Made by a program: the position numbers and the translations under genes | Part shown: piece after piece, positions 19,250-62,917 of the stretch | Layout: every line of letters starts with the position of its first letter | Position numbering within the stretch: the first letter of the stretch is position 1 | Origin: Daejeonella sp. H1SJ63 | GTDB taxonomy: Bacteria > Bacteroidota > Bacteroidia > Sphingobacteriales > Sphingobacteriaceae | Assembly: GCF_029360775.1 (NCBI RefSeq) | Contig: NZ_JARKMZ010000028.1 | Span: 496,001-560,000, forward strand | Direction of reading: 5' to 3' | DNA: 64,000 nucleotides | The notes under the pieces: generated by a model | What the model saw: the letters and a program-made list of their open reading frames with translations, nothing else | The model's database searches: none | What the model was told of the DNA's origin: nothing

Positions 19250-19807
19250 ATGGCCACATATGCAGCATATTCTGATATTGAGTTGCTCGATCTGTTAAGA
19301 TCAGGTGATAAGGCTGCATTTTCTGAAATATATAACAGGTACTGGAAAAAGATATTTACTGTTGCAGCAAATAAAATTGGTCAGTTAGAAGAAGCTGAAG
19401 AGATTGTTCAGGAAATATTTATATCTATGTGGAACAGACGTGAAAGCATCTTTATCACAACCTCTTTGAATGCTTATCTTGCTGTTTCTGTGAAATACAG
19501 AGTTATTAAGGTTCTTGCTAAGCGTAATTTGTATAATAAATTTGCTGATCATAGTCTCAGTATTTTGCCTCAGTCTGATAACTCCACACAGGACTGGCTG
19601 GAATTTGAAGAATTAAAATCACGTCTTGCAGTTCTTGTTACCCAACTTCCCGATAAATGTAGATTAGTTTATAAACTTAGCCGGGAGGAAGGAATGTCGC
19701 AAAAGCAAATCGCAGAGGAGTTTGGTATCTCTGAAAAAACGGTTGAAGCCCATATTGGAAAGGCTCTTAAACATTTAAGAACAGGTTTGGGACAGATATT
19801 TTTATAA
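19250..19807 (+). CDS. ECF sigma factor (FecI-like, RpoE family)
   Basis: A 185-residue ECF sigma from ATG 19250 (MATYAAYSDIELLDLLRSGD). The frame can extend upstream to a TTG at 19184, but that adds a hydrophobic stretch not expected in a sigma factor, so I reject it. Region 2 (AAFSEIYNRYWKKIFTVA... EEAEEIVQEIFISMWNRR) and region 4 (LPDKCRLVYKLSREEGMSQKQIAEEFGISEKTVEAHIGKAL, split here by the reader) are clear. It pairs with the FecR gene 71 bases downstream. In this phylum such pairs respond to a SusC with an STN domain, here the one at 21238. Target promoters probably include this locus. Confidence 0.93.
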   Translation: MATYAAYSDIELLDLLRSGDKAAFSEIYNRYWKKIFTVAANKIGQLEEAEEIVQEIFISMWNRRESIFITTSLNAYLAVSVKYRVIKVLAKRNLYNKFADHSLSILPQSDNSTQDWLEFEELKSRLAVLVTQLPDKCRLVYKLSREEGMSQKQIAEEFGISEKTVEAHIGKALKHLRTGLGQIFL

Positions 19808-19830: not shown

Positions 19831-19857
19831 GACTAAGGGATAGGGTCTTATTGAAGG
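19831..19857 (+). promoter_or_regulatory. GACTAAGGGATAG element in front of FecR
   Basis: GACTAAGGGATAGGGTCTTA resembles the element at 52226-52255, which also lies between an ECF sigma and its FecR (GACTAGGGGATACCTTATT). It is 33 bases before the FecR start, against 37 there. It may be a promoter or operator element for the anti-sigma gene. No function is demonstrated. Confidence 0.4.
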
Positions 19858-19878
19858 ACTTACTATAAAACCCTATTA

Positions 19879-34410: not shown

Positions 34411-34451
34411 TGACAAGTCCTAAAATAGTCAACCTATTTTAGGACTTGTCA
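34411..34451. terminator. Long perfect hairpin between convergent genes
   Basis: An 18-bp perfect stem (34411-34428 with 34434-34451) and a 5-base loop TCAAC, placed between the converging creatininase and membrane-fusion genes. It has no good T-run on either strand. It could still terminate both or protect 3' ends. Confidence 0.65.
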
Positions 34452-46184: not shown

Positions 46185-46220
46185 AAAAAGGGGCAGTGCA
46201 AAATGCACTGCCCCTTTTTT
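46185..46220. terminator. Bidirectional terminator after the lactate permease gene
   Basis: AAAAAGGGGCAGTGCA, loop AAA, TGCACTGCCCCTTTTT. It lies just past the stop of the minus-strand permease (46228). With the hairpin at 46046 it fully insulates the two converging operons. Confidence 0.92.
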
Positions 46221-46227
46221 ATGGATT

Positions 46228-47895
46228 TCAATGCACCACCATATTAGAAAATGGTATCACATATGCCTGCAGGAATACAAACAATCCTACCAAAGCCGCT
46301 AATGCTATACTATGAAAGAAGACGTACCTTAAAATTTGTCCCTCATGGCCATACCAGTTTGTTGCTGTACTGGCAACAACGATACTCTGAGCATCCACCA
46401 TCTTGCCCATCACACCTCCGGCACTGTTAGCTGCAGCCATTAAAACAGGGCTAACTCCGGTTTGTTTGGCAGTAATAGTCTGCAAACTCCCAAACAACAC
46501 ATTAGATGCAGTGTCAGATCCGGTTAATGCAACACCAAGCCATCCCAGCATAGTGCCGAAGAAAGGATATAAAACTCCCGTCTTAGCCAGGGCAAGCCCT
46601 AATGTGGCATCTGCTCCCGAATATTTCGTGACATATCCTAAAGCCAGCATGGCTGCAATGGTGATAAGCGAAAATCTGACTCTCCATAAAGTCTGTAAAT
46701 AAACCTTGAGCATTTCTACTATAGAATAGCCTATGGCAAATCCAGCTATTACGGCAGCCAGTAGTATTCCGGTACCTGTAGCTGATATCCAGTTAAGTTT
46801 AAATATTGCCTCCTCAGTTTTTGCCGGTTTGTCGGCTGTTGGTATTGGTGCAATAGGAGGGGAGCGTTTAACCAGATTATGTAAATAGCTTACCTCATAT
46901 TCAGGAGCAGAAATTGAATTAAGCGATTTCTTTACAGTTGGAACACCCCAGGCAAAAATAAACAGGGTCAGAATTACCCATGGAGTCCATGCTCTGATGA
47001 TGTCTTTATTTGAAACAGAAGTAGGGTCAGCTTCCAGTTTAACCGTGTCTTCAGCTTGTGGGAGCTCCCATATAGTTTTAGGCTGCCAGAATTTAAGAAG
47101 TACAATTATCGAAATGATGGACGCAATGGAGGCAAAAATATCTACCAGCCATGGACCATGATAATTAGCAACCAAAAATTGTGTTATTGCAAATGATAAT
47201 CCGGCTGTAAATGCAGCAGGCCATACGGCAATCATTCCTCTGAAGCCAGCCATTGCCCAGATTACCCAAAATGGGACAATAAATGAGAATAATGGGAGTT
47301 GTCTGCCAACCATTGCAGATAACTTTAACAGATCGATGTCTGTAACAGCTGCAAGAGCAATAATTGGTGTTCCTAAAGCCCCGAAAGCCACCGGAGCTGT
47401 ATTTGCGATCAGTGATAAACCACATGCCGCCAGAGGTCTGAATCCTAACTGAATAAGGATTGCAGCAGTAATAGCCACAGGGGTACCAAAACCTGCAGCT
47501 CCTTCAAAAAATGCACCAAATGCAAATGCAATCAGAATGACCTGAATCCTTGGATCGGGAGCTATGGTAGAAAGGTGCATTCTTATGAGGGTAAACAATC
47601 CTTTGTTTACTGTAAGCTGATAAAGGAATATCAGGTTTAAGACAATCCATCCAATCGGAAACAATCCGTATGCACCTCCATAAACTGTGGTAGCAGCTAC
47701 TGCCGGAACAGGCATGTTAAATGCATAAAGGGCAACTAAAATAGCTACAGCCAGGCCAAGCACTGCAGCGAGATGTATCCTTATGTGAAATATTGCTATT
47801 GAACCAAGAAGTACAATAATAGGAAGTGCTGCAAGCACAGTAGAGATTATGGCATTATTAAAGGGGTCGTAGTTTTGTGCCCAGATTTGTTCCAT
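46228..47895 (-). CDS. lldP: L-lactate permease (LctP/LldP family)
   Basis: A 555-residue inner-membrane carrier with about thirteen helices. Typical features are the start region SIAIFHIRIHLAAVLGLAVA, GFGTPVAITAAILIQLGFRP, ALGTPIIALAAVT, and the late GSDTASNVLFGSLQTITA. It transports lactate or glycolate with protons. It is the last gene of a minus-strand operon that begins with the secreted amidohydrolase at 51257, so its cargo is probably a 2-hydroxy acid released in the periplasm. The gap to RidA upstream is 35 bases. Confidence 0.93.
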   Translation of the reverse strand: MEQIWAQNYDPFNNAIISTVLAALPIIVLLGSIAIFHIRIHLAAVLGLAVAILVALYAFNMPVPAVAATTVYGGAYGLFPIGWIVLNLIFLYQLTVNKGLFTLIRMHLSTIAPDPRIQVILIAFAFGAFFEGAAGFGTPVAITAAILIQLGFRPLAACGLSLIANTAPVAFGALGTPIIALAAVTDIDLLKLSAMVGRQLPLFSFIVPFWVIWAMAGFRGMIAVWPAAFTAGLSFAITQFLVANYHGPWLVDIFASIASIISIIVLLKFWQPKTIWELPQAEDTVKLEADPTSVSNKDIIRAWTPWVILTLFIFAWGVPTVKKSLNSISAPEYEVSYLHNLVKRSPPIAPIPTADKPAKTEEAIFKLNWISATGTGILLAAVIAGFAIGYSIVEMLKVYLQTLWRVRFSLITIAAMLALGYVTKYSGADATLGLALAKTGVLYPFFGTMLGWLGVALTGSDTASNVLFGSLQTITAKQTGVSPVLMAAANSAGGVMGKMVDAQSIVVASTATNWYGHEGQILRYVFFHSIALAALVGLFVFLQAYVIPFSNMVVH

Positions 47896-47930: not shown

Positions 47931-48425
47931 TTATTTGAACGGATCCTTAGGTGAATTGTGAAGTTCAAAGAGTGCTTCAATCTCAACAGGGATATTATCG
48001 GGCAAAGAGTTGAAGCCAATTGCGCTTCTTACACCAATTCCGTTTTCTTCACCCCAGATTTTGGCAAATAACTCACTGCAACCGTTAATTACATTCGGAT
48101 GTCTCTCAAAATCATCTGTGCAATTAACCATCCCAAGGACTTTAATCACTCTTTTTACCTTGTTTAAACTTCCAAAATTTGTTTTGATAGTGGAGAGCAT
48201 TGCCAAAGCAACCTGCTGTGCCGCCAATTTACCTTGTTCGATGTCAAAATCCTGTCCTACACGACCCTTGATTAAGGATTTGTCATTTTTTACCGGTCCG
48301 TGTCCGGACAGGTAAAGATATTTGCCATCTACAATATATGGTTTGTAAACTCCTATAGGTTTGGGAGCAGGAGGTAAACTTAAACCTGTTTTTTCAAAAT
48401 TCTGGTCAGGTGTATTTTCTTGCAT
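47931..48425 (-). CDS. RidA-like enamine/imine deaminase, long form (copy 2)
   Basis: A 164-residue cytoplasmic RidA-superfamily protein, closely similar to 8970-9443 (shared FEKTGLSLPPAPKPIGVY-type start, LYLSGHGPV, KVLGMVNCTDDFERHP, NGIGVRSAIGF with the conserved Arg, and PVEIEALFEL). It lies between the beta-propeller gene and lactate permease in the amidohydrolase operon. The repeated association of this RidA subtype with COG3964-like amidohydrolases in two separate places supports a shared pathway. It has no export signal. Confidence 0.9.
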   Translation of the reverse strand: MQENTPDQNFEKTGLSLPPAPKPIGVYKPYIVDGKYLYLSGHGPVKNDKSLIKGRVGQDFDIEQGKLAAQQVALAMLSTIKTNFGSLNKVKRVIKVLGMVNCTDDFERHPNVINGCSELFAKIWGEENGIGVRSAIGFNSLPDNIPVEIEALFELHNSPKDPFK

Positions 48426-48492: not shown

Positions 48493-49926
48493 TTATCTTG
48501 GAATAGTAATCTTCCAGATTCTGCCACCATCCGAGTTGGCTGTTCCATGCTCAAGCACATAGATTTTATTTTCAATCAATAATGCATCTACCGGGGCATT
48601 GAAATTATTTACGATAGTAGTGGTTTTTACATAAAAATTATCTGCAGCAGCATTGTATGACATATCCAGATGCAGCAGATCCTTTCCGCTTTTTCTCAAT
48701 AAATTAGTTCCCGGGCGATCTGATCCGCCACCATATCTGAAAACAAACCCATCACCTTTAAATTCATTGCTCAGTGCATTTTTCGTATCAAATACCAGCC
48801 CAAGTGGTACGCTGTGTGCATTAAATGTACTTACAGTTTTTCCTGTAATATCCCCGTCAACAATTTTTCCTGAAGCAATATCCCTGTATTCATTAGCGTC
48901 AGGGCCAAGATTTTGTACTCCCGGAGAAAACTTAACTCCCTTTGGGATCTTTGGGAAATCAGGATCATTTCTGAAATATTTCACTACATAAGCATGTGCT
49001 CCCGGACTTATGAAGGCATCTTTGGTATGATCAGGTGTCCATGGTGAAAACTGCTGAGGGTTTTCAATCTCTGCCATTTGCCAGGGGAATCCATAATGGT
49101 GTCCTTGTCTGATCCAGAACATCCCCTCAGACTGATCATAATCTCCGGAATTTACAACCCCAAATAAATTACCCTTGCCATCGAAAGTCATGTCATAAGC
49201 ATTTCTGATGCCTTCGGCATAAAGATAACCATCAGCTTTAAGTTTAGCCCCGTCTGTTGTAAGCAGCAGGTCTTTCGTATTAGCAGGAAATCTGAAGACA
49301 TTTGCTGTTAATGCATTATCACGAGCATTGGGATATGCACCATTATTGTCCTGCACTTCACCATGATCGGTTCGGGCACCGGAGTTAACATAAATGTACT
49401 GTTTATCCGGACTCACAACCAGAGCATTCCAGCCGTGGTCAAATGTCGTAGCATTGGTGCCGTATTCAACGGTATTGAAAACTTCGGTTAAGACAGGCTT
49501 TGATTTTGATAAATCGTATTTAATCATTCTGCCTTTTGTGCCTTTACCATCATTTGCACTAATATTCCCACAGAGATACAGGGTGTTGTTTAAGAAGGCA
49601 GCTCCCTGAAGCCGGGTAATTCCATGATCTTCGGCGCTGAACATCAGATGCTCTGCTGCCCCGGGTGTGTCAAAATCTGAAATTCTGAACACATTCCCGT
49701 CAAATGTGGAATACCAGAATTCACCTGTTTTTGGATTTTTTAATAACCTCACTCCAAGTTTACCAATATCCATAACTTTTTCCACCTTAATATCCGGGCG
49801 TAATGGCACAGGAGTTTTAACCGGAGGGTTTTGCGTTCTGCTTTGCTGGGCATTTACAAATAAGGAGTAAGAAAAAAACAGGGCGAATAACCCTGTTTTT
49901 TTCAATGTGCATCTTATGTTGCGCAT
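48493..49926 (-). CDS. Secreted beta-propeller, PQQ-sugar/sorbosone-dehydrogenase-like
   Basis: A 477-residue protein with a Sec signal peptide (1-26, FVNAQQ). The mature part reads as a six-bladed propeller of the glucose/sorbosone dehydrogenase type: KNPKTGEFWYSTFDGNVFRI, GITRLQGAAFLNNTLYLCGN, VNSGARTDHGE, YAEGIRNAYDMTFDGKGNLF, HHYGFPWQ and YVLEHGTANSDGGRIWKI. Such enzymes oxidise sugars or hydroxy acids using PQQ, but many members of this group are only binding proteins. It sits 26 bases after the amidohydrolase gene in the same operon. The key PQQ ligands cannot be confirmed by eye. Confidence 0.75.
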   Translation of the reverse strand: MRNIRCTLKKTGLFALFFSYSLFVNAQQSRTQNPPVKTPVPLRPDIKVEKVMDIGKLGVRLLKNPKTGEFWYSTFDGNVFRISDFDTPGAAEHLMFSAEDHGITRLQGAAFLNNTLYLCGNISANDGKGTKGRMIKYDLSKSKPVLTEVFNTVEYGTNATTFDHGWNALVVSPDKQYIYVNSGARTDHGEVQDNNGAYPNARDNALTANVFRFPANTKDLLLTTDGAKLKADGYLYAEGIRNAYDMTFDGKGNLFGVVNSGDYDQSEGMFWIRQGHHYGFPWQMAEIENPQQFSPWTPDHTKDAFISPGAHAYVVKYFRNDPDFPKIPKGVKFSPGVQNLGPDANEYRDIASGKIVDGDITGKTVSTFNAHSVPLGLVFDTKNALSNEFKGDGFVFRYGGGSDRPGTNLLRKSGKDLLHLDMSYNAAADNFYVKTTTIVNNFNAPVDALLIENKIYVLEHGTANSDGGRIWKITIPR

Positions 49927-49952: not shown

Positions 49953-51257
49953 TTAAGGTCTTTGAGCTGGTCTTTGTCTCTGAGGATTTGGCAGAATATT
50001 TGGTTCAGCAATTCCATTCAGGTTATACACAATTCTACCGGCTCTGATGGTCATTTCAGTCTCAAGCCTTTGTTTTCCGGGAATTTTTCCATCTCTGGCA
50101 TAAAAACCAAAGTTTCCGTTTCTTACGGTAAATATAGCAACATCCGCCTCAGATCCAACTGAAAGATTACCTAATTCTGGTCTTTTGATTTCTTGTGCAG
50201 GATTCCAGGTACTTGCCTTAATTACACTCTGAAGATCCATGCCCATAGCCATAAATAATGACATAATATTAGGCATATTTTTCATCGCATTGTTCATACT
50301 TCCTGTATGAAGATCGGTACTGATTGAGTTAGGATAAAAACCGCTTTTTACTGCAGGAGTTCCCTGATTGAAAAGGAAACTTGAACCACCGAAACCAACG
50401 TCAAATATAACTCCTCTTTTTTGTGCTTTGATAACATAAGGTTTAACCTTGTTGGTAGTTACATCAACAATTGATTCACGACCATTTGGACTGGTGCTTC
50501 CGTTTCCACCGAATGCATGAGTATAAATATCGCCGGGGCGGAATTTTACATTAAACAGAGAGTCGAGTGGTAAATATGGACTGGCACCACCAAAGTCAAC
50601 CATCACCGGCAAATTAGCCAGTTTTCCTGCTTCAAGCAGACGGTCAGTTGGTACCCAGGTACGCCCGTTAAAATGTGCGAGCTTAAAACCTACGATATCA
50701 TTAGGATATTTTTTTGCCATTTCAGCAGCTTTCTGAGAATCCATTTCATTGATATCATTCTCATATTTTCCACCTGCCATTCCCTGACCAACAATATTTA
50801 ACATGGCAAGAACACGGGTTTGTGAACCTTCTATGGTTTGTTTTTTATAAAGTTCGAATGTTTTCCAACCCGGACTTCCTGCATCTACTACAGTTGTAAC
50901 ACCGGCAGGGAAGGTAAACCCGTCTGCAGGTAAACTTGAAGGAGCATTCATGTAAGCCGATCCATCATGGCCCCAGAAGAAATGAACGTGCAAATCAACC
51001 AGACCCGGAGTAACATACATCCCTTTTGCATTAACAACCTGTGCACCCTGTGCAGCGTCTATGTTTTTGGCTACCATGGCTACTTTACCATCCTTTATGG
51101 CCACATCCATCATTGTATTGATGTTGTTTTTAGGATCAATAACATGACCACCCTTAATAACGATACTGTAAGGTTTGTCAGATTGATTCTGCTGAGCCTG
51201 CAAACCAGTCCAAAGGATGGTTAACAAGGCCATGACGAAAAAACGTTTGTGCTTCAT
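49953..51257 (-). CDS. Secreted amidohydrolase (COG3964-like), copy 4
   Basis: A 434-residue paralogue with a Sec signal peptide (1-22, GLQAQQ). Ligands are H90 and H92 (LHVHFF), K192 (GFKLAHF), H247 (DIYTHAF) and the Asp in ISTDLH. D221 again occupies the strand-5 position (VMVDFGG), with DVGFG in the glycine loop. It has a longer loop (GNGSTSPNGRESI) and a Pro/Gln-rich tail (PNPQRQRPAQRP). It is the most divergent of the seven copies and heads an operon of propeller, RidA and lactate permease. The start is divergent from the cassette B sigma gene, 261 bases away. Confidence 0.88.
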   Translation of the reverse strand: MKHKRFFVMALLTILWTGLQAQQNQSDKPYSIVIKGGHVIDPKNNINTMMDVAIKDGKVAMVAKNIDAAQGAQVVNAKGMYVTPGLVDLHVHFFWGHDGSAYMNAPSSLPADGFTFPAGVTTVVDAGSPGWKTFELYKKQTIEGSQTRVLAMLNIVGQGMAGGKYENDINEMDSQKAAEMAKKYPNDIVGFKLAHFNGRTWVPTDRLLEAGKLANLPVMVDFGGASPYLPLDSLFNVKFRPGDIYTHAFGGNGSTSPNGRESIVDVTTNKVKPYVIKAQKRGVIFDVGFGGSSFLFNQGTPAVKSGFYPNSISTDLHTGSMNNAMKNMPNIMSLFMAMGMDLQSVIKASTWNPAQEIKRPELGNLSVGSEADVAIFTVRNGNFGFYARDGKIPGKQRLETEMTIRAGRIVYNLNGIAEPNILPNPQRQRPAQRP

Positions 51258-51337
51258 TTTACTCTGTTTTTGTTTTATTTTAAAAAAGTTACAATTGTTT
51301 TAAGATAAGTCAATGTAGTGTTTAAATCTTAAATATG

Positions 51338-51366
51338 AGAGTAAAAAAGAGCTTGTATCCCCTAGT
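51338..51366 (-). promoter_or_regulatory. Shared spaced motif upstream of the copy 4 amidohydrolase operon
   Basis: Read on the minus strand: ACTAGGGGATAC, seven bases, TTTTTACTCT. The same two blocks with the same seven-base spacing occur on the plus strand at 52227-52255 before FecR. It lies 80 bases before the amidohydrolase start and may be a common promoter or regulator site. Confidence 0.5.
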
Positions 51367-51518
51367 GTTAATAAATATTTATATTAATTTTCTTCAGACT
51401 TAATTTATTCCTTTACAATTTATTTATATTTAAATATTGAATTGAACTTTGAGATTACGTAACAGATTAGTGTACATATTTGATTTTTGAATTTATAAGT
51501 ATAATTTGGCGGTTATAA

Positions 51519-52064
51519 ATGGGTGAACAGTTAAAAATAGAGGATGTAGATTTGATGGACCGAATGAGGTCAGGAGATGATATTGCCCTTAAGCTTATTT
51601 ATAATAAATATTGGAATCATTTATTTAACTCCGCATATAATATATTAAGGGATCAGCAGGCCTGTGAAGATATAATTCAGGATGTATTCGTTAATTTATG
51701 GAATAAGCGTGAGCTTATTGAAATTAAAGTTTCTTTAAAATCATATCTTTTTGCTTCAACCCGTTACGAAGTATACCGTCAGGTGCGCTTAGGAAATGTT
51801 CGTGAAGACATTTTTGACCATGTTCATGAGCGTATGGCTACAGCTACCGAATATGGTAATATTGAACACCGGGAATTGCTTTCACAGATTAATTCAATTG
51901 TTGACAATCTTTCAGCTAAATGTAAAGAGGTTTACAAATTAAGCCGTGAAGAACAACTTTCTCATAAAGAAATTGCGTCACAACTCGATATTTCAACTAA
52001 AACTGTTGAGAATCATTTGAATAAAGCTTTGAGACAACTAAGAACTTCTCTTGGTTTATTCTGA
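51519..52064 (+). CDS. ECF sigma factor (FecI-like)
   Basis: A 181-residue ECF sigma. Region 2 is KLIYNKYWNHLFNSAYNILRD and EDIIQDVFVNLWNKREL; region 4 is DNLSAKCKEVYKLSREEQLS and KEIASQLDISTKTVENHLNKALRQLR (as consecutive short pieces). It is about as long as expected and starts with ATG. FecR follows after 212 bases, then an STN-bearing SusC, the classic cell-surface signalling trio. It probably drives cassette B and perhaps the divergent amidohydrolase operon, given the shared motif at 51338 and 52227. Confidence 0.94.
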   Translation: MGEQLKIEDVDLMDRMRSGDDIALKLIYNKYWNHLFNSAYNILRDQQACEDIIQDVFVNLWNKRELIEIKVSLKSYLFASTRYEVYRQVRLGNVREDIFDHVHERMATATEYGNIEHRELLSQINSIVDNLSAKCKEVYKLSREEQLSHKEIASQLDISTKTVENHLNKALRQLRTSLGLF

Positions 52065-52225
52065 TTGTACTTTTAATCCCGCATTAAAAAAGCTCTGTTT
52101 TTATTAATTTAAGTTAATTTTATTTTCCTTTACGATATAAAAATTGTAACTTGAAAGTAATTAAGCCTTTGTTGTAAGCATAAATCTATGTTAATTAGCC
52201 GTCTTCGCTAAATTATTTTACCTCC

Positions 52226-52255
52226 GACTAGGGGATACCTTATTATTTTTACTCT
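52226..52255 (+). promoter_or_regulatory. Shared spaced motif in front of FecR (cassette B)
   Basis: ACTAGGGGATAC (52227-52238), seven bases, TTTTTACTCT (52246-52255), ending 21 bases before the FecR start. It matches 51338-51366 in inverted orientation and resembles 19831-19857. It is a candidate ECF-sigma promoter or leader element. Confidence 0.5.
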
Positions 52256-52276
52256 TCATTATAAAATCAGAACATT

Positions 52277-53467
52277 TTGGAAAAAAAAGACTTTCATAAA
52301 TTACTGGATAAGTATATGTCTGGACAGGCCTCGCTGGAAGAAGAACAGCGGTTGCTGAACTTTTATGGAAGTTTTACAGAAACTTCAGATAAGAATGATT
52401 TGGCGGAGAATGATCAGCTTGCTGACAGAATATTTGACAAAATCAGCGAACAGATTAGTCCTTCTGATGATTCATCCCCATCATTTTATTCCTATTATCT
52501 TAAGTCATTTGCTGTTGCTGCAATGATTTTAATGGCCATTTCCACCAGTCTTTATTTTTATACAAACAGAGAGATCATCGAATCCCCGGCCGGGCAATTT
52601 GTAGAGATAAGTACAAAAAATGATATCCTTCCCGGAAACAATAAAGCAATTTTAACACTTGCAGATGGTTCCAGAATTAGTCTTGATGATGCCGAAAGCG
52701 GTTTGTTGGCAAGCCAGGGAAATATTGCGATTACTAAAACTCATAATGGAGAGATTGTTTATGAGAAGAATCAATCCGACAAAAAGAAGAATGCACTTTT
52801 TCAGTCTGTTATAAACACTATTCAAACTCCTAAAGGGGGTAAATATCAGGTTCGCTTACCTGATGGAAGTAAGGTTTGGTTAAATTCTGCATCGACCCTG
52901 AGTTATCCTACTGCATTTACAGGTAAAGAGCGTATTGTGAAGTTAAAAGGCGAGGCCTATTTTGAAATCGCACCGAATAAGTCAGTACCTTTTCGTGTAG
53001 AAAGCGATGATCAGATTGTTGAGGTGCTTGGGACACATTTTAATGTAAACTCTTACGATGATGAAGATTTTACTAAAACTACTCTGATTGAAGGTAGTGT
53101 TAAAGTTATTCTAAATACTAAATCTAATATTTCCGGTAAAACCAAACTGCTTAAACCTGGAGAGCAATCGTTTATCAATTCATCAAAGTCTGATATCCGG
53201 ATAGAAAATGCAGACACAGAAAAAGCGATCGCCTGGAAAAATGGATATTTTAAGTTTAAAAATACTCCTATTCAGGAAATTATGCGGGAAGTGGAAAGAT
53301 GGTATGATGTAGAGCTGATCTATGAAGGTAATATGCCTACCGATGAGTTCACTGGTTTTGTATCTAATGATGTTAATATTTCAGCGGTATTAAAGATTTT
53401 GGAGCAGAGCGGGGGAGTAAAGTTTACAGTAAAAGGTAAAAAATTGAAAGTGAAATCAATTCAATAA
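52277..53467 (+). CDS. FecR-family anti-sigma factor (cassette B)
   Basis: A 396-residue single-pass regulator with a TTG start; the next in-frame ATG would remove the first helix of the sigma-binding part. Membrane helix at about 74-95 (YLKSFAVAAMILMAISTSLY). The periplasmic FecR domain has NTIQTPKGGKYQVRLPDG, SKVWLNSASTLSYP, GEAYFEIAPN and LGTHFNVNSY, and the C-terminal region has EIMREVERWYDVELIYEG. It should gate the ECF sigma at 51519 in answer to the STN domain of the SusC at 53657. A 189-base gap with a weak hairpin precedes that SusC. Confidence 0.94.
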   Translation: MEKKDFHKLLDKYMSGQASLEEEQRLLNFYGSFTETSDKNDLAENDQLADRIFDKISEQISPSDDSSPSFYSYYLKSFAVAAMILMAISTSLYFYTNREIIESPAGQFVEISTKNDILPGNNKAILTLADGSRISLDDAESGLLASQGNIAITKTHNGEIVYEKNQSDKKKNALFQSVINTIQTPKGGKYQVRLPDGSKVWLNSASTLSYPTAFTGKERIVKLKGEAYFEIAPNKSVPFRVESDDQIVEVLGTHFNVNSYDDEDFTKTTLIEGSVKVILNTKSNISGKTKLLKPGEQSFINSSKSDIRIENADTEKAIAWKNGYFKFKNTPIQEIMREVERWYDVELIYEGNMPTDEFTGFVSNDVNISAVLKILEQSGGVKFTVKGKKLKVKSIQ

Positions 53468-53656: not shown

Positions 53657-56600
53657 ATGGAAAATGTTTTACTAAGTGATTGCAGTCAAACCTGCATGAA
53701 CAGTTTTAGGAATATTCCTAAAAAGAGACTTTCGGCAACGGCAATAGTCTCTAAACAAATGTTACGAATTATGAAGCTAAGTACCATTTTTATTCTGGTA
53801 GCTTTTATGCAGGTAAGCGCTAAAGGTTATTCGCAAAATGTTACCTTGAATGAAACTAATTCTAACCTTGATAAAGTTTTCACAGAAATCAGAAAACAAA
53901 CAGGTTATGATTTCCTTTATAATACAAGACTGTTAAAGAATACAGTTCCTGTAACTGTAAAAGCTAAAAATTCTTCCTTGGAGAATGTGCTTGATCAGGT
54001 TTTCAAAAACCAGCCGCTAACGTATACCATCACTGAGAATACGATTATTCTTAAGAGAAAAGATGAGCGTTCAACTGAGCAGGCTAATCAACTGTCACTT
54101 GTTTCAGGTGCTCGTGAAGCTAATGCTTTGAATTCTGCAAAAGGTGTAGTTTCAAAATACAGCATTGAGCAGAAAAGAGTTGACATCCGTGGTAAAGTTA
54201 TTGATGCAGCAGGTGAGGCTTTAATTGGTGTAAGTGTTCGCGTAAAAGGTACTGAAACCGGTGCTTCTACAGATGTTAACGGTAATTTCGTTCTTAGTGC
54301 TCCTGATAACGCAATTCTTGTTGTTACTTACATTGGTTATGTAACTCAGGAAGTTGCTGTTAACGGCCGTGCAAATATCAGCATTACTATGGTTGAAGAC
54401 CGTCAGACTCTGAGTGAGGTTGTAGTTACAGCGTTTGGTGTTACCAAAGCAAAAAGAGGTTTGGGTTATGCAGTACAGGAAGTAAGAGGTGATGTATTCA
54501 CTGAGGCACGTCAGAATAACGTGGCTAACTCACTTACAGGTAAGATTGCCGGTGTTGATGCAACACAGGCTAACTCAGGTGTTGGTGGTTCCAGCCGTGT
54601 AATCATTCGTGGTAATACTTCCCTGAATGGTAATCAGCAGCCGCTTTATGTTGTTGATGGTATGCCGATCAATAATGGTAACCGTGGCCCGGCTACAAGT
54701 TCAGGCGGTTTGAACGTTGACCGTGGTGATGGTATTTCAAGTATGAACCCTGATGATATCGCTACAATCTCTGTATTGAAAGGTGGTGCTGCTGCTGCTC
54801 TTTACGGAAGTCAGGCTGCGAATGGTGTAATTTTGATTACTACCAAGAAAGGTTCTGCTCAGAAAGGTGTAGGTATCGAAGTTACTTCTGATGCAAACTT
54901 TGGTTCAGCTTCAGTTTTCCCTAAATTCCAGTATGAATACGGACAGGGTAATGATGGTGTAAAGCCGGCTGATGCTGCTAAGGCATTAAGTTCAGGCCGT
55001 CTTTCTTATGGTGCAAAAATGGACGGTTCTATGGTAATGCAGTTTGATGGGGTTATGCGTCCTTATTCTCCATTCAATGTTAAAGACAATATCAAAAATT
55101 TCTACAATACCAGCCAGAATATTACTAATACAGTAGCATTCAATGCCGGAACTGAGAAATTCAGAATGAGATTTTCTGCAAGTGATCTGCGTGCAAAAGA
55201 TCAGCAGCCAAACTCTGATTACAAGAGAAAAACAGCTAACTTAAATGTTATTGGTAAAATGGGTAAGAATGATTTCTTAACTGTTGAATCAAGCGTTCAG
55301 TACAATCTGGTTGAAGGTAAAAACAGACCAAACGTTGGTTATGCTGAGATCAATGCTGCATGGCCTGTATATCTGGCTGCAAACGTAGTTGATGTTCGTA
55401 ATATGCGTGGTACTGATCCATCAAGACCTGGTATCAATGTTGCTACCGGAAGAGAGCTTGAGTGGAATCCGGTACCTGCTGCGGTAAACCCTTACTATGC
55501 TGCATATCAGTTAGGTAACGAGGATGATCGTCAGCGTTTAATCGGACGTGCAAGTGTTCAGGCTAATATCTTACCTAACTTATTTGTTAAAGGTACGGTT
55601 GCAAGAGATTTCAATTATTATACTGAATCTTTCTACGTTCCTAACACAAATGCATTCACTCCGCTTGGTTACTTCCAGTCTGGTGTTGAGCAAACTGACA
55701 AAACTAACTTCCAGGGAACAATCAACTATAACGAAAGATTCCTGAAAGATAAAATAGGATTAAATATCCTTGCAGGTGCTCAGAGTGAGAGAGATGCAAA
55801 CAGAAGCAATACTGCTAATGGTTCACAGTGGGTAGTTCCTAATTTCTACAGTATTTCTAACCTTGTTAACAGAGATCTGGTTAACTACAGAAATGCAACT
55901 TTAGATGGAACTGCTTCAGGAGGTACAAACTCTGTTTTTGGAGAGGCTAATATCGACTATAACAATCTCCTTTATTTAACTGTTACTGGAAGACAGGACT
56001 GGTTCTCAGTGTTGAACCCTGGTTTTAACTCGATCTTCTATCCTTCAGTAGGTGCTAGTTTTATCCTTTCTGAAGTGGTTAAAATGCCTAAGTTCATTGA
56101 TTATGCAAAATTGCGTTCTTCATGGGCTGAGGTTGGTAGTGCAACTGTAAATGCTGGTAGTATCAACCAGACCTATGCTGTAAGTACTGTTAACGCATAT
56201 GGCTTACCTACTTTAAGTAATCCAAATACACTGAATAACCCTAACATTCGTCCTGTAACTGTAGCAACAGTTGAAGGTGGTTTTGAGGTTCAGATGTTAG
56301 ACAGCCGTATCGGATTAGATGTGAACTACTATTCAAGAAGAACCAGAAATGATATTCTTTCTCCTCCGATTTCAGGTGCAACCGGTTATGCTGCAGGAAG
56401 AAGAAACCTTGGTCTTGTAACCAACAAAGGCTGGGAGATCAGCTTAACTGGTACTCCGATTAAGAAAGATGACTTCTCATGGGATGTAAACTATAACTTC
56501 GGTTACAATCAAAGTAAGATCGTTGAACTTGCTGAAGGTATCGATGTGTTAACTTTAGGTTCTGGTATTGGTGGTCCTTCAATGATCAATGCTGTAGGCT

Positions 56601-57253
56601 TACCTTACTCAACTGTTCGTGCTTACGTAATGAGAAGAGATGCTAATGGAACGTTGGTTTACAATAAAGCTACCGGTTACGAAGACAGAGTACTGGCTGA
56701 TATAGGTGTGGGTAATCCTCCGTATCTGATGGGACTTGGTAACAATTTCCGTTACAAGCGCTTCAGCTTAACAGTTGATATCGACTCTAAATTCGGAGCT
56801 GTGGGTTACAGTAACCTTATTCAGTATGCTACCCGTTTTGGTCACACTGTTCAAACCTTGCCTGGTAGAGATGCTGGCTTAACTGTTTCTGGTGTTGATC
56901 AGACAGGTGCTCCATATACTAAGGTATGGTCTGTTGTGGATCTGGATACCTATTACAATAACTATGGTAATGCTTATGCAGGTCAGTGGGTTTATAAAAC
57001 AGATTTTATAAAATTGCGTCGTGCAGTATTGAAGTATAACCTGCCTGTAAGTGCTCTTAAATTCATGAGAGTTCAGGGAGCTTCTATCGGTATTACAGGT
57101 TTAAATCTTGCAACCCTTTACCAGGATAAGAGAATTAAAGATGCTGGTATCGATCCTGAAATGCAGGAAACCGTAGGTAATGCTCAGGGAAGTCAGGGTG
57201 TTTCAATGCCAAGAACCAGAAATATCGGCTTTAACCTGAATTTAAGATTCTAA
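53657..57253 (+). CDS. SusC/RagA-type TonB-dependent transducer with STN domain (cassette B)
   Basis: A 1198-residue outer-membrane transporter. A 38-residue leader precedes the likely signal peptide (MKLSTIFILVAFMQVSAKGYSQ). Then an STN domain (about 65-135, LDKVFTEIRKQTGYDFLYN), carboxypeptidase-like repeat (about 175-258), plug (SEVVVTAFGVTKAKRG to SVLKGGAAAALYGSQAANG) and barrel ending IGFNLNLRF. The last 200 residues closely match the fragment at 1-620, so the two SusCs are duplicates. Codons here lean to CGT, GGT, AAC and CTG, as in highly expressed genes. SusD follows after 17 bases. Confidence 0.95.
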   Translation: MENVLLSDCSQTCMNSFRNIPKKRLSATAIVSKQMLRIMKLSTIFILVAFMQVSAKGYSQNVTLNETNSNLDKVFTEIRKQTGYDFLYNTRLLKNTVPVTVKAKNSSLENVLDQVFKNQPLTYTITENTIILKRKDERSTEQANQLSLVSGAREANALNSAKGVVSKYSIEQKRVDIRGKVIDAAGEALIGVSVRVKGTETGASTDVNGNFVLSAPDNAILVVTYIGYVTQEVAVNGRANISITMVEDRQTLSEVVVTAFGVTKAKRGLGYAVQEVRGDVFTEARQNNVANSLTGKIAGVDATQANSGVGGSSRVIIRGNTSLNGNQQPLYVVDGMPINNGNRGPATSSGGLNVDRGDGISSMNPDDIATISVLKGGAAAALYGSQAANGVILITTKKGSAQKGVGIEVTSDANFGSASVFPKFQYEYGQGNDGVKPADAAKALSSGRLSYGAKMDGSMVMQFDGVMRPYSPFNVKDNIKNFYNTSQNITNTVAFNAGTEKFRMRFSASDLRAKDQQPNSDYKRKTANLNVIGKMGKNDFLTVESSVQYNLVEGKNRPNVGYAEINAAWPVYLAANVVDVRNMRGTDPSRPGINVATGRELEWNPVPAAVNPYYAAYQLGNEDDRQRLIGRASVQANILPNLFVKGTVARDFNYYTESFYVPNTNAFTPLGYFQSGVEQTDKTNFQGTINYNERFLKDKIGLNILAGAQSERDANRSNTANGSQWVVPNFYSISNLVNRDLVNYRNATLDGTASGGTNSVFGEANIDYNNLLYLTVTGRQDWFSVLNPGFNSIFYPSVGASFILSEVVKMPKFIDYAKLRSSWAEVGSATVNAGSINQTYAVSTVNAYGLPTLSNPNTLNNPNIRPVTVATVEGGFEVQMLDSRIGLDVNYYSRRTRNDILSPPISGATGYAAGRRNLGLVTNKGWEISLTGTPIKKDDFSWDVNYNFGYNQSKIVELAEGIDVLTLGSGIGGPSMINAVGLPYSTVRAYVMRRDANGTLVYNKATGYEDRVLADIGVGNPPYLMGLGNNFRYKRFSLTVDIDSKFGAVGYSNLIQYATRFGHTVQTLPGRDAGLTVSGVDQTGAPYTKVWSVVDLDTYYNNYGNAYAGQWVYKTDFIKLRRAVLKYNLPVSALKFMRVQGASIGITGLNLATLYQDKRIKDAGIDPEMQETVGNAQGSQGVSMPRTRNIGFNLNLRF

Positions 57254-57270: not shown

Positions 57271-58869
57271 ATGAAAAAGACATTCTTTAAATTGATATAT
57301 GCGGCCGGAGCTGTTCTTGTGGTTTCAACCATGCCATCGTGTAATACCGAGAAGCTGACCGACCTGAACAAGAATCCTGATGCTATTGAATATGTAATTC
57401 CGGAATACTCTTTCACCGCTGCTGTATTAGGAAGCGGACCGGGTGAGAATTACAGAGCTTTAGGACAGGGCTTGCAGTATTTTTCTTCATACAAGGAAGT
57501 TCCTGCAACCGGTGATAAATTTTATAACTTCAACGGAACTGCAGGTAACTTTAATGTTTACACCGGTCAGTGGAATCGTTTATTGCAATTAGCAAAACAA
57601 ATTCCGGGTGCGGAAAATGTTAACAAACGTGCTGCTGTTGAGATTCTCAGAATCCTGGCCTTCCATCAGCAAACAGACCTGATGGGTGATATGCCATATA
57701 CAGAAGCAATGAAAGGCCTTGATGTATTAAAGCCAAAGTATGATACTCAGAAAAGTATCTATACTGCAATGCTGACAGAGCTTGAAACTGCTTTGAAATC
57801 TATGGATGCAACCAAGCCAAATGTATTTGGCAATGCTGATCCTTACTTTAAGGGTGATATTGCTAAATGGAAAAAGTTCGGATATACCCTGATGCTGCGT
57901 TTAGGTATGCGTCTGTCTGATGTTGAGCCAGCTACTGCTAAATCATGGGTTGAGAAAGCTGTTGCCGGTGGTGTAATGACTGCAAACTCTGATATTGCTT
58001 ATCTGAAATATGCAAACGTAACAGGCCAGATGAACCCACGTGTTAATACCTATATTGCTGGTGACTTTACAAGTCCGGGTGGTGATAACGTAGAGGGCAG
58101 CAAATGGTCTGGTAAATTCATCGATCATTTGAAAAACACAAACGATCCGCGTTTACCGGTAATTTCTGTAGTTTGGGTACCATCAGGCGGTTCTTATACC
58201 GCTAACAATACTCCTTCTGTCCAGCGTGGTATGATCAATGGTAGTATCAATACCAAACCAACGGACTTTGATACTTATTCAGAACCTTCATTACTTTACA
58301 TTGACAGAGGTTCACCAATCATTACAATGGGCCCTGCTGAAGCTTATTTAATTATTGCAGAAGCAGCAGCCAGAGGATGGAGTGTTGGAACCACTGCTCA
58401 GGCAGCATACGAAAATGGTGTTCGTGCAGCTATGGCTCAGTGGGCATTATGGCCAAGCGTTGCCCCTCATTCAGGAGTAATTACTACTGCTCAGGTTGAT
58501 GCATATATTGCTGCTAATCCTTATCCGGCTGCCGGAACATTTGCTCAGCAGCTCGAAGCTATCTCTACTCAGAAATGGGTTTCTTTACTGGGTGATGATT
58601 ACGAAGTTTATTCTAACTGGCGCCGTACCAAATATCCTGTTTTCAATTATGCAAACTGGACAGTTGGCGGCAATAAGGTTTCTTATCCTGGTAACGTAAC
58701 TGCAGGTAAAATGTGGAGAAGATTCTCTCTGCCAATTGCTGAGCGTAATGTGAATCCCGATAATTATTTTGAAGCCATCAAGAGACAAAACTACTCTGAA
58801 GAGCAGGTTGATCTTTTACAAGGCAGAATGTGGTGGGATGTTGGTCCTGGCACAGGTCAAAGTAACTAA
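57271..58869 (+). CDS. SusD-like (SusD-like_2 type) surface lipoprotein (cassette B)
   Basis: A 532-residue lipoprotein: signal with lipobox PSC (Cys about 24), then NTEKLTDLNKNPDA. It matches 638-2239 over nearly the whole length, for example GLQYFxxYxEVxxxGDKFY, VFGNADPYFKGDI, PTDFDTYSEPSLLY and the end MWWDVGPGTGQ. It should cover the SusC encoded 17 bases upstream. Unlike cassette A, a 14-bp hairpin (58933-58965) separates it from the PLP gene, which may keep SusC/D expression above that of the enzymes. Confidence 0.95.
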   Translation: MKKTFFKLIYAAGAVLVVSTMPSCNTEKLTDLNKNPDAIEYVIPEYSFTAAVLGSGPGENYRALGQGLQYFSSYKEVPATGDKFYNFNGTAGNFNVYTGQWNRLLQLAKQIPGAENVNKRAAVEILRILAFHQQTDLMGDMPYTEAMKGLDVLKPKYDTQKSIYTAMLTELETALKSMDATKPNVFGNADPYFKGDIAKWKKFGYTLMLRLGMRLSDVEPATAKSWVEKAVAGGVMTANSDIAYLKYANVTGQMNPRVNTYIAGDFTSPGGDNVEGSKWSGKFIDHLKNTNDPRLPVISVVWVPSGGSYTANNTPSVQRGMINGSINTKPTDFDTYSEPSLLYIDRGSPIITMGPAEAYLIIAEAAARGWSVGTTAQAAYENGVRAAMAQWALWPSVAPHSGVITTAQVDAYIAANPYPAAGTFAQQLEAISTQKWVSLLGDDYEVYSNWRRTKYPVFNYANWTVGGNKVSYPGNVTAGKMWRRFSLPIAERNVNPDNYFEAIKRQNYSEEQVDLLQGRMWWDVGPGTGQSN

Positions 58870-59002: not shown

Positions 59003-60223
59003 ATGAAACGTAGAGAATTAATTAAATACCTTTCTGTAGCTCCTGTTGCCGGTGCAGCTATTGGAACAGGTGTTCCTCTTGAGTCAATTGCGTCTACTGT
59101 AGGTACTGCAGCAAAGCGTGATGTGATTAAAGAACTTGGACTAAGAGTGTTTATTAATGCAGCAGGAACTTATACAACAATGACTGCATCATTAATGCAT
59201 CATGAAGTTGTGGATACCATTGAAGCAGCTTCTAAACATTTTGTCATGATCAATGAAGTTCAGGATAAAGTGGGAGCAAAGATCGCAGAAATGTGTCACG
59301 CTGAATCTGCTATGGTTACAGCAGGTTGCTGGTCTGCCCTTGTTTTAGGAACCGCAGGTGTTTTAACCCGTATGGACAGAAAGAAAGTTTCACTTTTACC
59401 TGATCTTTCAACATTCGAAAAAACTGAAGTTATCGTTCAGAAAGCACATAACGTAGGTTATGTTCATGCACTGACCAATACCGGTATGAAGGTTGTTGAG
59501 GTTGAAACTGCAGAAGAAATGGAAAGAGCGATCACAAACAGGACTGCCATGATGTGGTTTCTGAATTCAAGTGGTCCGATGGGTAAGATCAAACATGAGG
59601 AGTTTGTTGCGATAGGTAAAAAGCATAATGTGCCAACAATGATCGATATGGCAGCTGACGTGCCGCCGGTTGAGAACTTATGGAAATATAATGACCTTGG
59701 CTTTGATCTGGTTTGTGTATCAGGTGGTAAAGCAATTTGCGGTCCGCAGAGTGCCGGTATTTTGATGGGTAAAAAAGATCTGATTGCAGCTGCCCGTTTG
59801 AATGCACCTCCTAATGGTGGTAATATCGGACGTGGTATGAAAGTAAACAAGGAAGAGATCCTTGGAATGTATGTAGCTTTAGATAAGTATATCCATACAG
59901 ATCATGATGCCGAGTGGAAAATGTGGGAAGCCAGAGTTGCAAATATTGTCAATTCAGTTCAGAAAGTTGCAGGTGCTAATGCTGAGGTATTTGTTCCTCC
60001 GGTAGCAAATCATACTCCTGCGATTAAAATAACATGGGATTCTTCGAAGATCAAACTTACTCCAAGAGAATTTTTGAAAGAGCTTCAGGATGGTAGTCCT
60101 TCAATTGAGGTTATGACCAGCCAGGATGCTATTAATATTACCGTGTTTATGCTTAAACCAGGTGAAGACAAAATTGTTGCTAAAAGGGTACAGGAAGTAC
60201 TTGCCAAGGCAGCATTAAGTTAA
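59003..60223 (+). CDS. Tat-exported PLP-dependent SelA/DgaE-like lyase (copy 3)
   Basis: A 406-residue paralogue, closest to 2268-3509. Twin-arginine signal KRRELIKYLSVAPVAGA. The Schiff-base Lys is K243, but the following segment is GGKAICGPQS, with Cys in place of the Arg found in the other two copies; that Arg lies near the phosphate or substrate carboxylate site in this loop, so specificity or activity may differ. The Asp partner is in TMIDMAADVPP. It lies between SusD and three amidohydrolases, as in cassette A. A terminator at 60245 separates it from the first of these. Confidence 0.87.
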   Translation: MKRRELIKYLSVAPVAGAAIGTGVPLESIASTVGTAAKRDVIKELGLRVFINAAGTYTTMTASLMHHEVVDTIEAASKHFVMINEVQDKVGAKIAEMCHAESAMVTAGCWSALVLGTAGVLTRMDRKKVSLLPDLSTFEKTEVIVQKAHNVGYVHALTNTGMKVVEVETAEEMERAITNRTAMMWFLNSSGPMGKIKHEEFVAIGKKHNVPTMIDMAADVPPVENLWKYNDLGFDLVCVSGGKAICGPQSAGILMGKKDLIAAARLNAPPNGGNIGRGMKVNKEEILGMYVALDKYIHTDHDAEWKMWEARVANIVNSVQKVAGANAEVFVPPVANHTPAIKITWDSSKIKLTPREFLKELQDGSPSIEVMTSQDAINITVFMLKPGEDKIVAKRVQEVLAKAALS

Positions 60224-60309: not shown

Positions 60310-61563
60310 ATGAGAAGAATATCCATTTTGCTTCTTTCCGGATTAATTATGCTTGCAGGTGTTGTTCAGGCACAAACCAAGACATATAGTATCCTTATCA
60401 AAGGGGGGCATGTAATTGATGCCAAAAATAATATAAACGAATTAATGGACGTGGCTATCCATGACGGCAAAATTGCCGCTATTGCCAAAAATATTGATCC
60501 TGCACTTGCTGCCCAGATTGTGGAAGCAAAAGGGATGTACGTAACTCCTGGTTTAATTGACTTGCATGCTCACGTATTCGCAGGTACAGATGACCGTGGA
60601 CTTAGCGGCGGATTTTCTGCTCTTGCTCCGGATCCTTATACCTTCCGTTCCGGTGTAACCACAGTAGTTGATTGTGGAGGTGCCGGCTGGCAATCATTTG
60701 ACCGATTTAAGAAAAATATTATCGATCGTTCAAGAACAAGAGTTTTGTCTTTTCTTAATATTGTTGGTGATGGTATGAGAGGCGACCCTTATGAGCAGGA
60801 TATCAATGATATGGATGCTAAAAAAACTGCAGAAAAGGCTTTAGCTAATAAGGATATTGTAGTTGGATTTAAACTTGCTCACTTCGCAGCTGCAAGCTGG
60901 ATTCCGGTTGAGCGGGTGGTTGAAGCGGGTAAAATAGCTAATATGCCTGTTATTATTGATTTCGGTGGTGATGATACCCATGCACCATTATCTATTGAGA
61001 AATTATTCACTCAGTATCTGCGTCCGGGTGATATTTATACTCACGTTTATACAGAGTTGAGCAGAAGAGATCCTGTTGTTGATCTCAAAACAAGACAACT
61101 GAGGCCATTTTTAATTCCTGCTCAAAAAAGAGGAATTATTTTTGATGTCGGTTTCGGTGGCGGAAGCTTCAATTTCAATCAGGCTATCCCTGCAATTAAA
61201 GCAGGATTTTTGCCAAATACAATGGGAACAGATCTTCATACCGGAAGTATGAACGGTGCAATGAAAGATCAGCTGAATGTACTTTCTATTTTCCTTTCGA
61301 TGGGAATGGATATTCCTTCTGTTATTTCGAGAAGCACCTGGGCTCCGGCACAGGCAATCAAGCGTCCTGAGTTAGGTCATTTATCAGTTGGTGCAGGAGC
61401 AGATGTTGCGATTTTAAGTGTGCGTAATGGGAATTTCGCTTTCAAAGATATTTCCGGTAACAGAAATGAAGGAAAACAAAGGTTCGAATGTGAAATGACT
61501 ATCCGTAATGGAAGAATTGTTTATGATCTGAATGCCATAGCTGGTAATATATCAAAAAACTAA
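60310..61563 (+). CDS. Secreted amidohydrolase (COG3964-like), copy 5
   Basis: A 417-residue paralogue with a Sec signal peptide (1-22, VVQAQT). Ligands are H86 and H88 (LHAHVF), K188 (GFKLAHF), H245 (DIYTHVY) and the Asp in MGTDLH. The strand-5 residue is D217 (VIIDFGG) and DVGFG is again present. GDDTHAPLSIEK after strand 5 supplies a His that could compensate as a ligand, which is unique to this copy. It is the first of three in cassette B and the positional match of copy 1. Confidence 0.88.
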   Translation: MRRISILLLSGLIMLAGVVQAQTKTYSILIKGGHVIDAKNNINELMDVAIHDGKIAAIAKNIDPALAAQIVEAKGMYVTPGLIDLHAHVFAGTDDRGLSGGFSALAPDPYTFRSGVTTVVDCGGAGWQSFDRFKKNIIDRSRTRVLSFLNIVGDGMRGDPYEQDINDMDAKKTAEKALANKDIVVGFKLAHFAAASWIPVERVVEAGKIANMPVIIDFGGDDTHAPLSIEKLFTQYLRPGDIYTHVYTELSRRDPVVDLKTRQLRPFLIPAQKRGIIFDVGFGGGSFNFNQAIPAIKAGFLPNTMGTDLHTGSMNGAMKDQLNVLSIFLSMGMDIPSVISRSTWAPAQAIKRPELGHLSVGAGADVAILSVRNGNFAFKDISGNRNEGKQRFECEMTIRNGRIVYDLNAIAGNISKN

Positions 61564-61681
61564 TAATTTGTTAGTTTGATTGGCTATTGAGACAGTATGG
61601 GTACTAAAGTATTTAATAGAATACTATAATTTATTAATACCCATTGGACTCTAATTTTTAATGATATTAAGAAATAAAACA

Positions 61682-62917
61682 ATGAGAAGAATCTCGATAA
61701 TAGTGATTGCCCTGCTTTTTATGGCAAGCTATACAAATGCTCAGGGTAAAATATATAATACCCTGATTAAGGGTGGCCGGGTAATCGATGCAAAAAACAA
61801 TATTAATGCTTTGCTTGATGTAGCCATTAAAGACGGGAAGATTGCTAAAGTTGCCCAGAATATAGATCCTGCACAGGCAGAGCAGACCGTGAATGCAAAG
61901 GGTATGTATGTTACTCCCGGTCTGATAGATATTCATGCACATGTATTCTGGGGAACTCAGCCTGACAGCTACCTGAGTAACGGTGATGTTGGTGTTACTG
62001 CCGATGGATTCAGCTTCCGTTCAGGTGTGACTACTCTGGTAGACTGTGGTGGAGCCGGATACAAGTCTTTCGATACTTTTAAGAAAAATATCATCGATAA
62101 ATCAAAAACCAGAGTTCTTTCCTTCCTGAATATTGTTGGTGAAGGTATGCGTGGCGGTGATTATGAGCAGGATATCAGTGATATGGACTACAGGCTGGCT
62201 GCCAAAGCTGCATTGGATAATAAAGAACATGTTGTAGGGTTTAAACTAGCACATTTTACAAATCCTGACTGGACTCCTGTTCGGCGTATTGTGGAAGCAG
62301 GAAAATTAGCCAATATGCCGGTTGTTATTGATTTTGGTGGTGGTAAACTACCAATTGAAGATCTGTTCTTCAAGTATTTAAGACCAGGAGATATTTATAC
62401 TCATGTGTTTACAGAGCTTGAAAGGAGAGATCCGATTGTAGATCTTCAGTCTCGTCAATTGAGATCTTTTGTAATTCCTGCTCAAAAAAGAGGAATTATC
62501 TTCGACGTTGGTTTTGGTGGTGGAAGTTTCAATTTCAATCAGGCTATTCCTGCAATTAAAGCAGGTTTCTTACCTGATCTGATGGGAACCGATCTTCATA
62601 CAGGCAGTATGAACGGAGCCATGAAAGATCAGTTAAATGTTCTTTCTATTCATCTGGCTATGGGAATGGATATCCCAGGAGTTATTGAGCGCAGTACCTG
62701 GCGTCCGGCGCAGGCTATTAAACGTACAGAATTAGGCCATCTTTCTGAAGGAGCTATAGCAGATATCGCAATTCTAAGTGTTCGTAATGGTAAATTTGGT
62801 TTCAGAGATATTGCAGGAAACCGTCATGAAGGAACTCAGAAGCTGGAATGCGAAATGACTTTGAAAGACGGACGAATAATGTATGATCTGAATGCAATAG
62901 CTTCAGCTAAAAAATAA
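61682..62917 (+). CDS. Secreted amidohydrolase (COG3964-like), copy 6
   Basis: A 411-residue paralogue. I place the start at ATG 61682 (MRRISIIVIALLFM), not 61661, because copy 5 begins the same way and the earlier ATG adds a charged leader before the Sec signal (ending TNA-QG). Ligands are H85 and H87 (IHAHVF), K188 (GFKLAHF), H241 (DIYTHVF) and the Asp in MGTDLH; strand 5 has D217 (VVIDFGG). DVGFGGG is retained. The 118-base gap to copy 5 shows no strong terminator. The next paralogue starts 33 bases after its stop. Confidence 0.88.
   Translation: MRRISIIVIALLFMASYTNAQGKIYNTLIKGGRVIDAKNNINALLDVAIKDGKIAKVAQNIDPAQAEQTVNAKGMYVTPGLIDIHAHVFWGTQPDSYLSNGDVGVTADGFSFRSGVTTLVDCGGAGYKSFDTFKKNIIDKSKTRVLSFLNIVGEGMRGGDYEQDISDMDYRLAAKAALDNKEHVVGFKLAHFTNPDWTPVRRIVEAGKLANMPVVIDFGGGKLPIEDLFFKYLRPGDIYTHVFTELERRDPIVDLQSRQLRSFVIPAQKRGIIFDVGFGGGSFNFNQAIPAIKAGFLPDLMGTDLHTGSMNGAMKDQLNVLSIHLAMGMDIPGVIERSTWRPAQAIKRTELGHLSEGAIADIAILSVRNGKFGFRDIAGNRHEGTQKLECEMTLKDGRIMYDLNAIASAKK

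Follow-up and report, generated by a model that had tools for sequence, protein, structure and literature searches.

A candidate ECF sigma factor promoter shared by a FecR–SusCD cassette and a divergent amidohydrolase–lactate permease operon in Daejeonella sp. H1SJ63

Within a 64,000-nucleotide stretch of the Daejeonella sp. H1SJ63 genome (contig NZ_JARKMZ010000028.1, positions 496,001 to 560,000; hereafter the window), a short bipartite sequence, ACTAGGGGATAC-N7-TTTTTACTCT, occurs in inverted orientations on either side of an ECF sigma factor gene, raising the question of what this pair does and whether it joins the two operons that it faces. The preliminary description gave two copies with identical blocks and spacing, facing a FecR gene and an amidohydrolase (copy 4), and a pattern search finds both exactly, at 52227–52255 on the plus strand and 51338–51366 on the minus strand, 0.9 kb apart and each directed away from the sigma gene, which we refer to as sigma-B. 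FecR starts with a TTG codon at 52277 and the amidohydrolase with an ATG at 51257; the first copy (box 1) is 50 nt upstream of FecR, and the second (box 2) is upstream of an amidohydrolase–propeller–Rid–LctP operon. These are also the only two exact copies in the whole 3.65 Mb genome (56 contigs), and at up to three mismatches the full motif has no further match in the window or in the genome, and none in 100 dinucleotide shuffles of the window. A relaxed, shorter pattern (TAGGGGNTA-N9-TTTTACTC) has two exact matches in the genome, one with one mismatch, two with two and 23 with three, against 74 matches at up to three mismatches for its reversed version; we therefore take the first three sites as signal and the others as noise, and claim no further regulon members. 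Random scatter of the motif, a concern raised at the outset, is thus not what the genome contains: there are two exact sites, a third at one mismatch, and a remainder at chance level.

Sigma-B (51519–52064, plus strand) is an ECF sigma factor with regions 2 and 4 only (Sigma70_r2 and Sigma70_r4_2) and belongs to the Bacteroidetes expansion family, scoring 139.4 bits with TIGR02985 against a cut-off of 126.4; its closest named relatives are in Daejeonella (Sphingobacteriaceae). There is no box upstream of its own start, the two copies being the only box matches in the window. It adjoins a FecR-family anti-sigma/sigma regulator (52277–53467, plus strand; FecR PF04773 and FecR_C PF16344 above their cut-offs), which is followed on the same strand by a SusC-like TonB-dependent transporter (53657–57253; Plug, CarbopepD_reg_2, and the STN signalling domain PF07660 at residues 84–135), its SusD-like lipoprotein partner (57271–58869; SusD-like families), a SelA/DgaE-like PLP enzyme (59003–60223; SelA, with a TIGR01437 match below cut-off) and two PRK09237-family amidohydrolases (60310–61563 and 61661–62917; NF006689 above cut-off for both). 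We refer to this group as cassette B. On the minus strand, box 2 is followed by amidohydrolase copy 4 (49953–51257; NF006689 above cut-off), a 477-aa propeller-like protein (48493–49926) with a weak glucose/sorbosone dehydrogenase match (PF07995, below cut-off) and conserved gene order, a Rid-family protein (47931–48425; PF14588 and PF01042 above cut-off) and an LctP-family lactate permease (46228–47895; PF02652, with TIGR00795 above cut-off). Near-perfect intergenic inverted repeats at 34415–34447 and 46185–46219 are possibly transcription terminators.

The amidohydrolase family is strikingly expanded for a 3.65 Mb genome, with 21 matches to a window amidohydrolase at E<=1e-120; copies in the window include 3547–4809, 4894–6159, 6218–7450, 49953–51257, 60310–61563 and 61661–62917, and several relatives have 16–20 copies. 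The theme of amidohydrolases, PLP enzyme, Rid proteins and LctP permease would fit a pathway that takes up and degrades an acylated amino- or hydroxy-acid, and this substrate remains a guess, since a literature search on the amidohydrolase family found no relevant report.

A search of 399 family genomes for sigma-B orthologues (E<=1e-58) identified 36 genomes. With FecR starts estimated by alignment to the FecR of the window, and with a scanning pattern (T[AG]GGGG, 15–18 nt, ACTC-like) that was composed after most sites were known, the box (TAGGGGATA ... TTTTACTC) is present upstream of FecR in 36/36 of these loci, at a distance of 45–63 nt and in 35 of them at 45–51 nt; the background of the pattern is 16 matches in 2.17 Mb (both strands), or 0.0007 per 90 nt. 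From GGGG to ACTC the spacing is 16 nt in 34 loci, and the remaining two have one extra base (17 nt). These are two conserved blocks 16–17 nt apart, a spacing like that of ECF promoters, in fixed orientation and just upstream of the target gene, as in an ECF-type promoter. In Daejeonella lutea (G001, L053) FecR is 29 kb from the sigma gene and the box is still upstream of FecR. Similarly, in loci of Mucilaginibacter and Pedobacter (g15, the genus that contains Mucilaginibacter phenanthrenivorans, and g14, which contains Pedobacter foliorum) sigma and FecR are up to several kb apart, often with genes between them, and the box stays with FecR; where SusC is matched in these loci it has only 27–31% identity to the SusC of the window. 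Across 18 longer non-Daejeonella loci (289,518 nt) there are 18 matches at up to three mismatches, 17 of them upstream of FecR and one elsewhere, and the eighteenth FecR (L262) has a box with one extra spacer base. Within Daejeonella, 7/9 orthologous loci (L047, L049–L052, L054, L055) have the box on both sides at up to six mismatches, the other two being a locus that ends before FecR (L048) and one in which sigma has no FecR next to it (L053); 67 loci of other sigmas (1.09 Mb), taken as a control, give no matches at up to five mismatches and four at six. The H1SJ63 genome has 11 other FecR genes, none with a sigma-B box. A degenerate pattern at up to one mismatch has 17 matches in 20 Daejeonella genomes, all assigned by their coordinates: 7 at FecR, 3 at the divergent operon and 7 at an SGL/RidA operon considered below.

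Presence of the box also follows that of the sigma gene, as for an ECF-type promoter, with the third site as the exception. Outside Daejeonella the box is found at up to one mismatch in 22/25 sigma-B-positive genomes versus 0/25 sigma-B-negative genomes, and a looser pattern recovers it in the three positives that lack such a match. By coordinates, 22 of the 24 matches in these positives are at FecR and two are elsewhere. The corresponding Fisher value (2.6e-11) is valid only if the genomes are independent and overstates the difference, because they are not independent and the negatives, picked by handle number, are unmatched by genus (4/25 belong to g15, compared with 23/25 positives). Within Daejeonella, 10/11 sigma-B-positive and 2/9 sigma-B-negative genomes have a match.

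The anatomy of the box was derived from 52 sites compiled by hand from the matches; absent sites are uncounted, so that invariance of a column means invariance among matching sites. Column counts give TAGGGGATA, a 13 nt AT-biased spacer and (T)ACTC(T/A), with GGGG and both C residues of ACTC invariant in 52/52 sites. In box 1 the putative -35 element TAGGGGATA is at 52229–52237 and the putative -10 element ACTCT at 52251–52255. The stretch before the -10 is T-rich, and an AA conserved about 9–10 nt after it is likely the transcription start. The predicted starts, near 52263 and near 51330, would give leaders of 14 nt before FecR and 73 nt before the amidohydrolase. Classical ECF promoters have AAC at -35 and CGT(C) at -10, which differ from the TAGGGGATA and ACTC seen here; as ECF groups differ in both elements, the mismatch weakens only the case for a classical ECF promoter.

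We propose, with a probability of roughly 0.87, that the two motifs are -35/-10 promoters of the sigma factor encoded between them and that they drive both operons. The suggestion in the preliminary description that cassette B and the lactate-permease operon are linked through an ECF-sigma promoter is supported by the boxes before 36/36 FecR genes, the 22/25 versus 0/25 co-occurrence, and the divergent site, present in 10/10 sigma-B-positive Daejeonella with the gene and altered in 2/2 negatives. The signal would pass from SusC through FecR and sigma-B to both operons, by analogy with the Fec system and with Bacteroides SusCD systems as described in the available parts of two reports (PMC3878776, PMC11501099). 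Substrate binding at the STN-bearing SusC would relieve the hold of FecR on sigma-B, which with RNA polymerase would read TAGGGGATA, 13 nt and ACTC(T/A), firing outward both ways. The rightward transcript would carry FecR, SusC, SusD, the PLP enzyme and two amidohydrolases, the leftward one the amidohydrolase, propeller, Rid and LctP genes, and an SGL-lactonase/RidA operon located elsewhere would likewise be switched on from a third site in H1SJ63 and some of its relatives. As FecR but not sigma is behind a box, activation would make more of the partner of sigma-B and could thereby form a homeostatic loop. Since the matching outward signals look like sigma-B promoters, one surface sensor would switch on the uptake system together with the neighbouring breakdown genes. 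Control may involve more than the box, because in the Bacteroides thetaiotaomicron PUL24 system transcription persisted at a basal level when the sigma was deleted and another regulator is also active, according to the available part of that report (PMC11501099).

Among other explanations, the one that survives best, and which we consider unlikely, accepts box 1 as the sigma-B promoter but denies sigma-B any use of box 2 or of the third site, which would be either promoters of another sigma or relics. The divergent sites are weaker and more variable, several having ACACT in place of ACTCT and a T-tract that is shortened or lost; against this, box 2 is exact in the H1SJ63 genome and its fate in relatives follows that of sigma-B. 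The amidohydrolase has orthologues in 12/20 Daejeonella genomes (76–89% identity, apart from the genome's own at 100%), and TAGGGG-N17-AC[TA]C lies 78–146 nt upstream of it in 10/10 sigma-B-positive genomes with the gene, whereas both sigma-B-negative genomes that keep it (G004, G017) have an altered hexamer, TAGAGG or TAGAGT. In G017 the 16 kb stretch with the divergent operon (L190) contains no detectable sigma-B, and the FecR by that operon is a remnant (residues 285–393, with 5 in-frame stops). In G012 the divergent box is retained even though the gene behind it is of the RidA family, in place of the amidohydrolase. The sigma-B-positive and -negative Daejeonella amount to a few natural tests, and these favour use of the divergent box by sigma-B. 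The FecR remnant of G017, at about 11389–11691 of L190, has an intact amidohydrolase operon on one side and SusC on the other, and with sigma-B gone it is a natural regulator loss.

The third site (G000:C21:583581, outside the window) is a one-mismatch box 45 nt upstream of an SGL-lactonase-like gene, which is followed by a RidA-family gene. The lactonase has orthologues in 14/20 Daejeonella genomes, two of which (G003, G019) are unreadable near contig ends, and the box is present in 7 of the 12 readable ones: 5/9 with sigma-B and 2/3 without. The third site is thus a truly conserved sequence, but co-occurrence does not support dependence on sigma-B, and the persistence of the box in two genomes that lack a close sigma-B is a point for this explanation. 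These two genomes, G004 and G017 (L146, L147), keep the third-operon box although close sigma-B was not found there.

A second explanation, to which we give little credence, has a DNA-binding regulator distinct from sigma-B occupying the box. Outside Daejeonella, CCCC follows the -35 in many of the sites at FecR (g15 examples are L260:2520 and L266:12750), giving GGGGATACCCC, and this GGGG-ATA-CCCC arrangement in Mucilaginibacter resembles a short palindrome. Only the GGGG half is invariant, however (each G in 52/52 sites), and the four columns facing it carry 0.43–0.58 bits or less, the first 0.20. The conserved partner of GGGG is instead the ACTC 16 nt on, at near-fixed spacing and in constant orientation to the gene; presence of the box follows the sigma gene, and for sigma-A, a second sigma of the window, a parallel box stands in the equivalent position. 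These features argue against such a regulator.

A chance repeat or a leftover of duplication or inversion is suggested by nothing beyond the inverted pair itself, 0.9 kb apart, and can be dismissed, given the absence of matches in the shuffles, the retention of the box across genera, and flanks of which only 15/60 bases upstream and 18/60 downstream are alike, no more than for AT-rich sequence, against 23/29 in the core, so that the pair is not the remnant of a longer duplicated segment. A duplication origin is ruled out by this flank comparison.

The preliminary description also noted a related sequence at 19831, at a similar distance before the other FecR of the window. The distance is indeed similar, the ACTA of the 12-mer GACTAAGGGATAG that begins at 19831 being 47 nt upstream of the FecR start at 19879, compared with 50 nt at the other FecR, but the sequence looks less like a shared site than like the own box of sigma-A (19184–19807, plus strand; TIGR02985 above cut-off, 41% identity to sigma-B). 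The putative sigma-A promoter, GACTAAGGGAT-N14-GGACTTACTATAA, spans 19831–19868 on the plus strand. Alone, GACTAAGGGATAG is not significant in the window (3 found versus 2.88 expected at up to two mismatches), and its significance arises only because it is conserved in orthologous loci. In relatives the sigma-A box takes the form ACTAAGGGAT ... GGACTTGTAT (ACTAAGGGAT, about 14 nt, then GGACTT), and ACTAAGGGAT is upstream of FecR in 10/10 loci where sigma-A adjoins its FecR, a count drawn from 19 loci of which the other 9 are other sigmas or arrangements. No second sigma-A site was found in the window at up to two mismatches. One shared site for both cassettes was rejected, as the sigma-A -35 (CTAAGGG) and -10 differ from those of sigma-B and are conserved in its own orthologues; the most fitting reading of 19831 is therefore an element of the same type whose specificity is different. 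By eye, further sigma/FecR groups have their own boxes upstream of FecR, such as ACTAGTCCT ... AGGTGTAT and GTGTGTT ... GACTCTAT. Own two-block boxes before FecR were likewise noted by eye in L196 and L042–L044, in L199, L201 and L202, and in L203 and L206, for example GACTAGTCCT...GGTGTAT.

Bacteroidetes hold dozens of ECF sigma/anti-sigma pairs with promoters that are mostly unknown; in B. thetaiotaomicron there are 50 ECF sigmas, according to the available part of one report (PMC12596196). Here the comparison of FecR-upstream sequences yielded a sharp candidate promoter for one clade of sigmas and different ones for further clades, and the stretch before FecR may more widely reveal the promoter of each sigma. 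We lean, by a small margin, towards a general form of this proposal: that each FecR-regulated ECF sigma of these Bacteroidetes has its own readable promoter upstream of its FecR, so that the pre-FecR stretch would decode specificity without start data and yield an orthogonal promoter set per genome, and that in Daejeonella catabolic operons (the divergent amidohydrolase–LctP operon and the SGL/RidA operon) captured the sigma-B promoter, the regulon growing from a one-target ancestor. The last element follows from the predominance of the FecR site outside Daejeonella (22/24 box matches in 25 genomes). If confirmed, sigma specificities and regulons would be computable from genomes, a single signal would govern the uptake system along with two catabolic operons, and orthogonal promoter parts would become available.

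In its general scheme the system is familiar, and we regard it as a putative new regulon within a known kind of system, with a promoter code read from DNA sequence alone. A literature search on ECF, FecR, SusC and promoters, mostly at the level of listings, found no report of the sigma-B box. In the ferric citrate system of Escherichia coli, FecI–FecR–FecA, fecI and fecR form one operon that is not known to be driven by FecI. Both systems have an ECF sigma, a FecR-family regulator and a TonB-dependent transporter with an N-terminal signalling domain, which in each is sigma-driven (here by prediction); they differ in that here FecR, but not the sigma, is behind a sigma-B box, and in that a SusCD pair and amidohydrolases take the place of an iron system. 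Closer at hand, Bacteroides SusCD loci (PMC3878776, PMC11501099) likewise bring together sigma, anti-sigma and SusC/SusD, with the sigma released on substrate transport (here by prediction); the available parts of these reports give no box, whereas one is proposed here by comparison alone, and the second, divergent operon that sigma-B appears to drive is a further difference. The first of these reports, in its available part, holds that ECF promoter prediction needs mapped transcription starts (PMC3878776). An ECF sigma acting beyond its own sigma/anti-sigma cassette has a parallel in SigW-1/PUL59 of B. thetaiotaomicron, which, in the part of the report available, is an ECF251 sigma with a motif reported as non-significant and TGTT near the -10, a family and a sequence different from those described here (PMC12596196). 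Finally, SM6 of Flavobacterium psychrophilum is an ECF-type promoter class in the same phylum, inferred from mapped starts, and one SM6 promoter stands before an ECF sigma/anti-sigma pair; as far as the available text describes them, SM6 promoters carry a CGT box in the -10 position and drive T9SS genes, whereas the sigma-B box combines a -10 of ACTC with a -35 of TAGGGGATA (PMC9723704).
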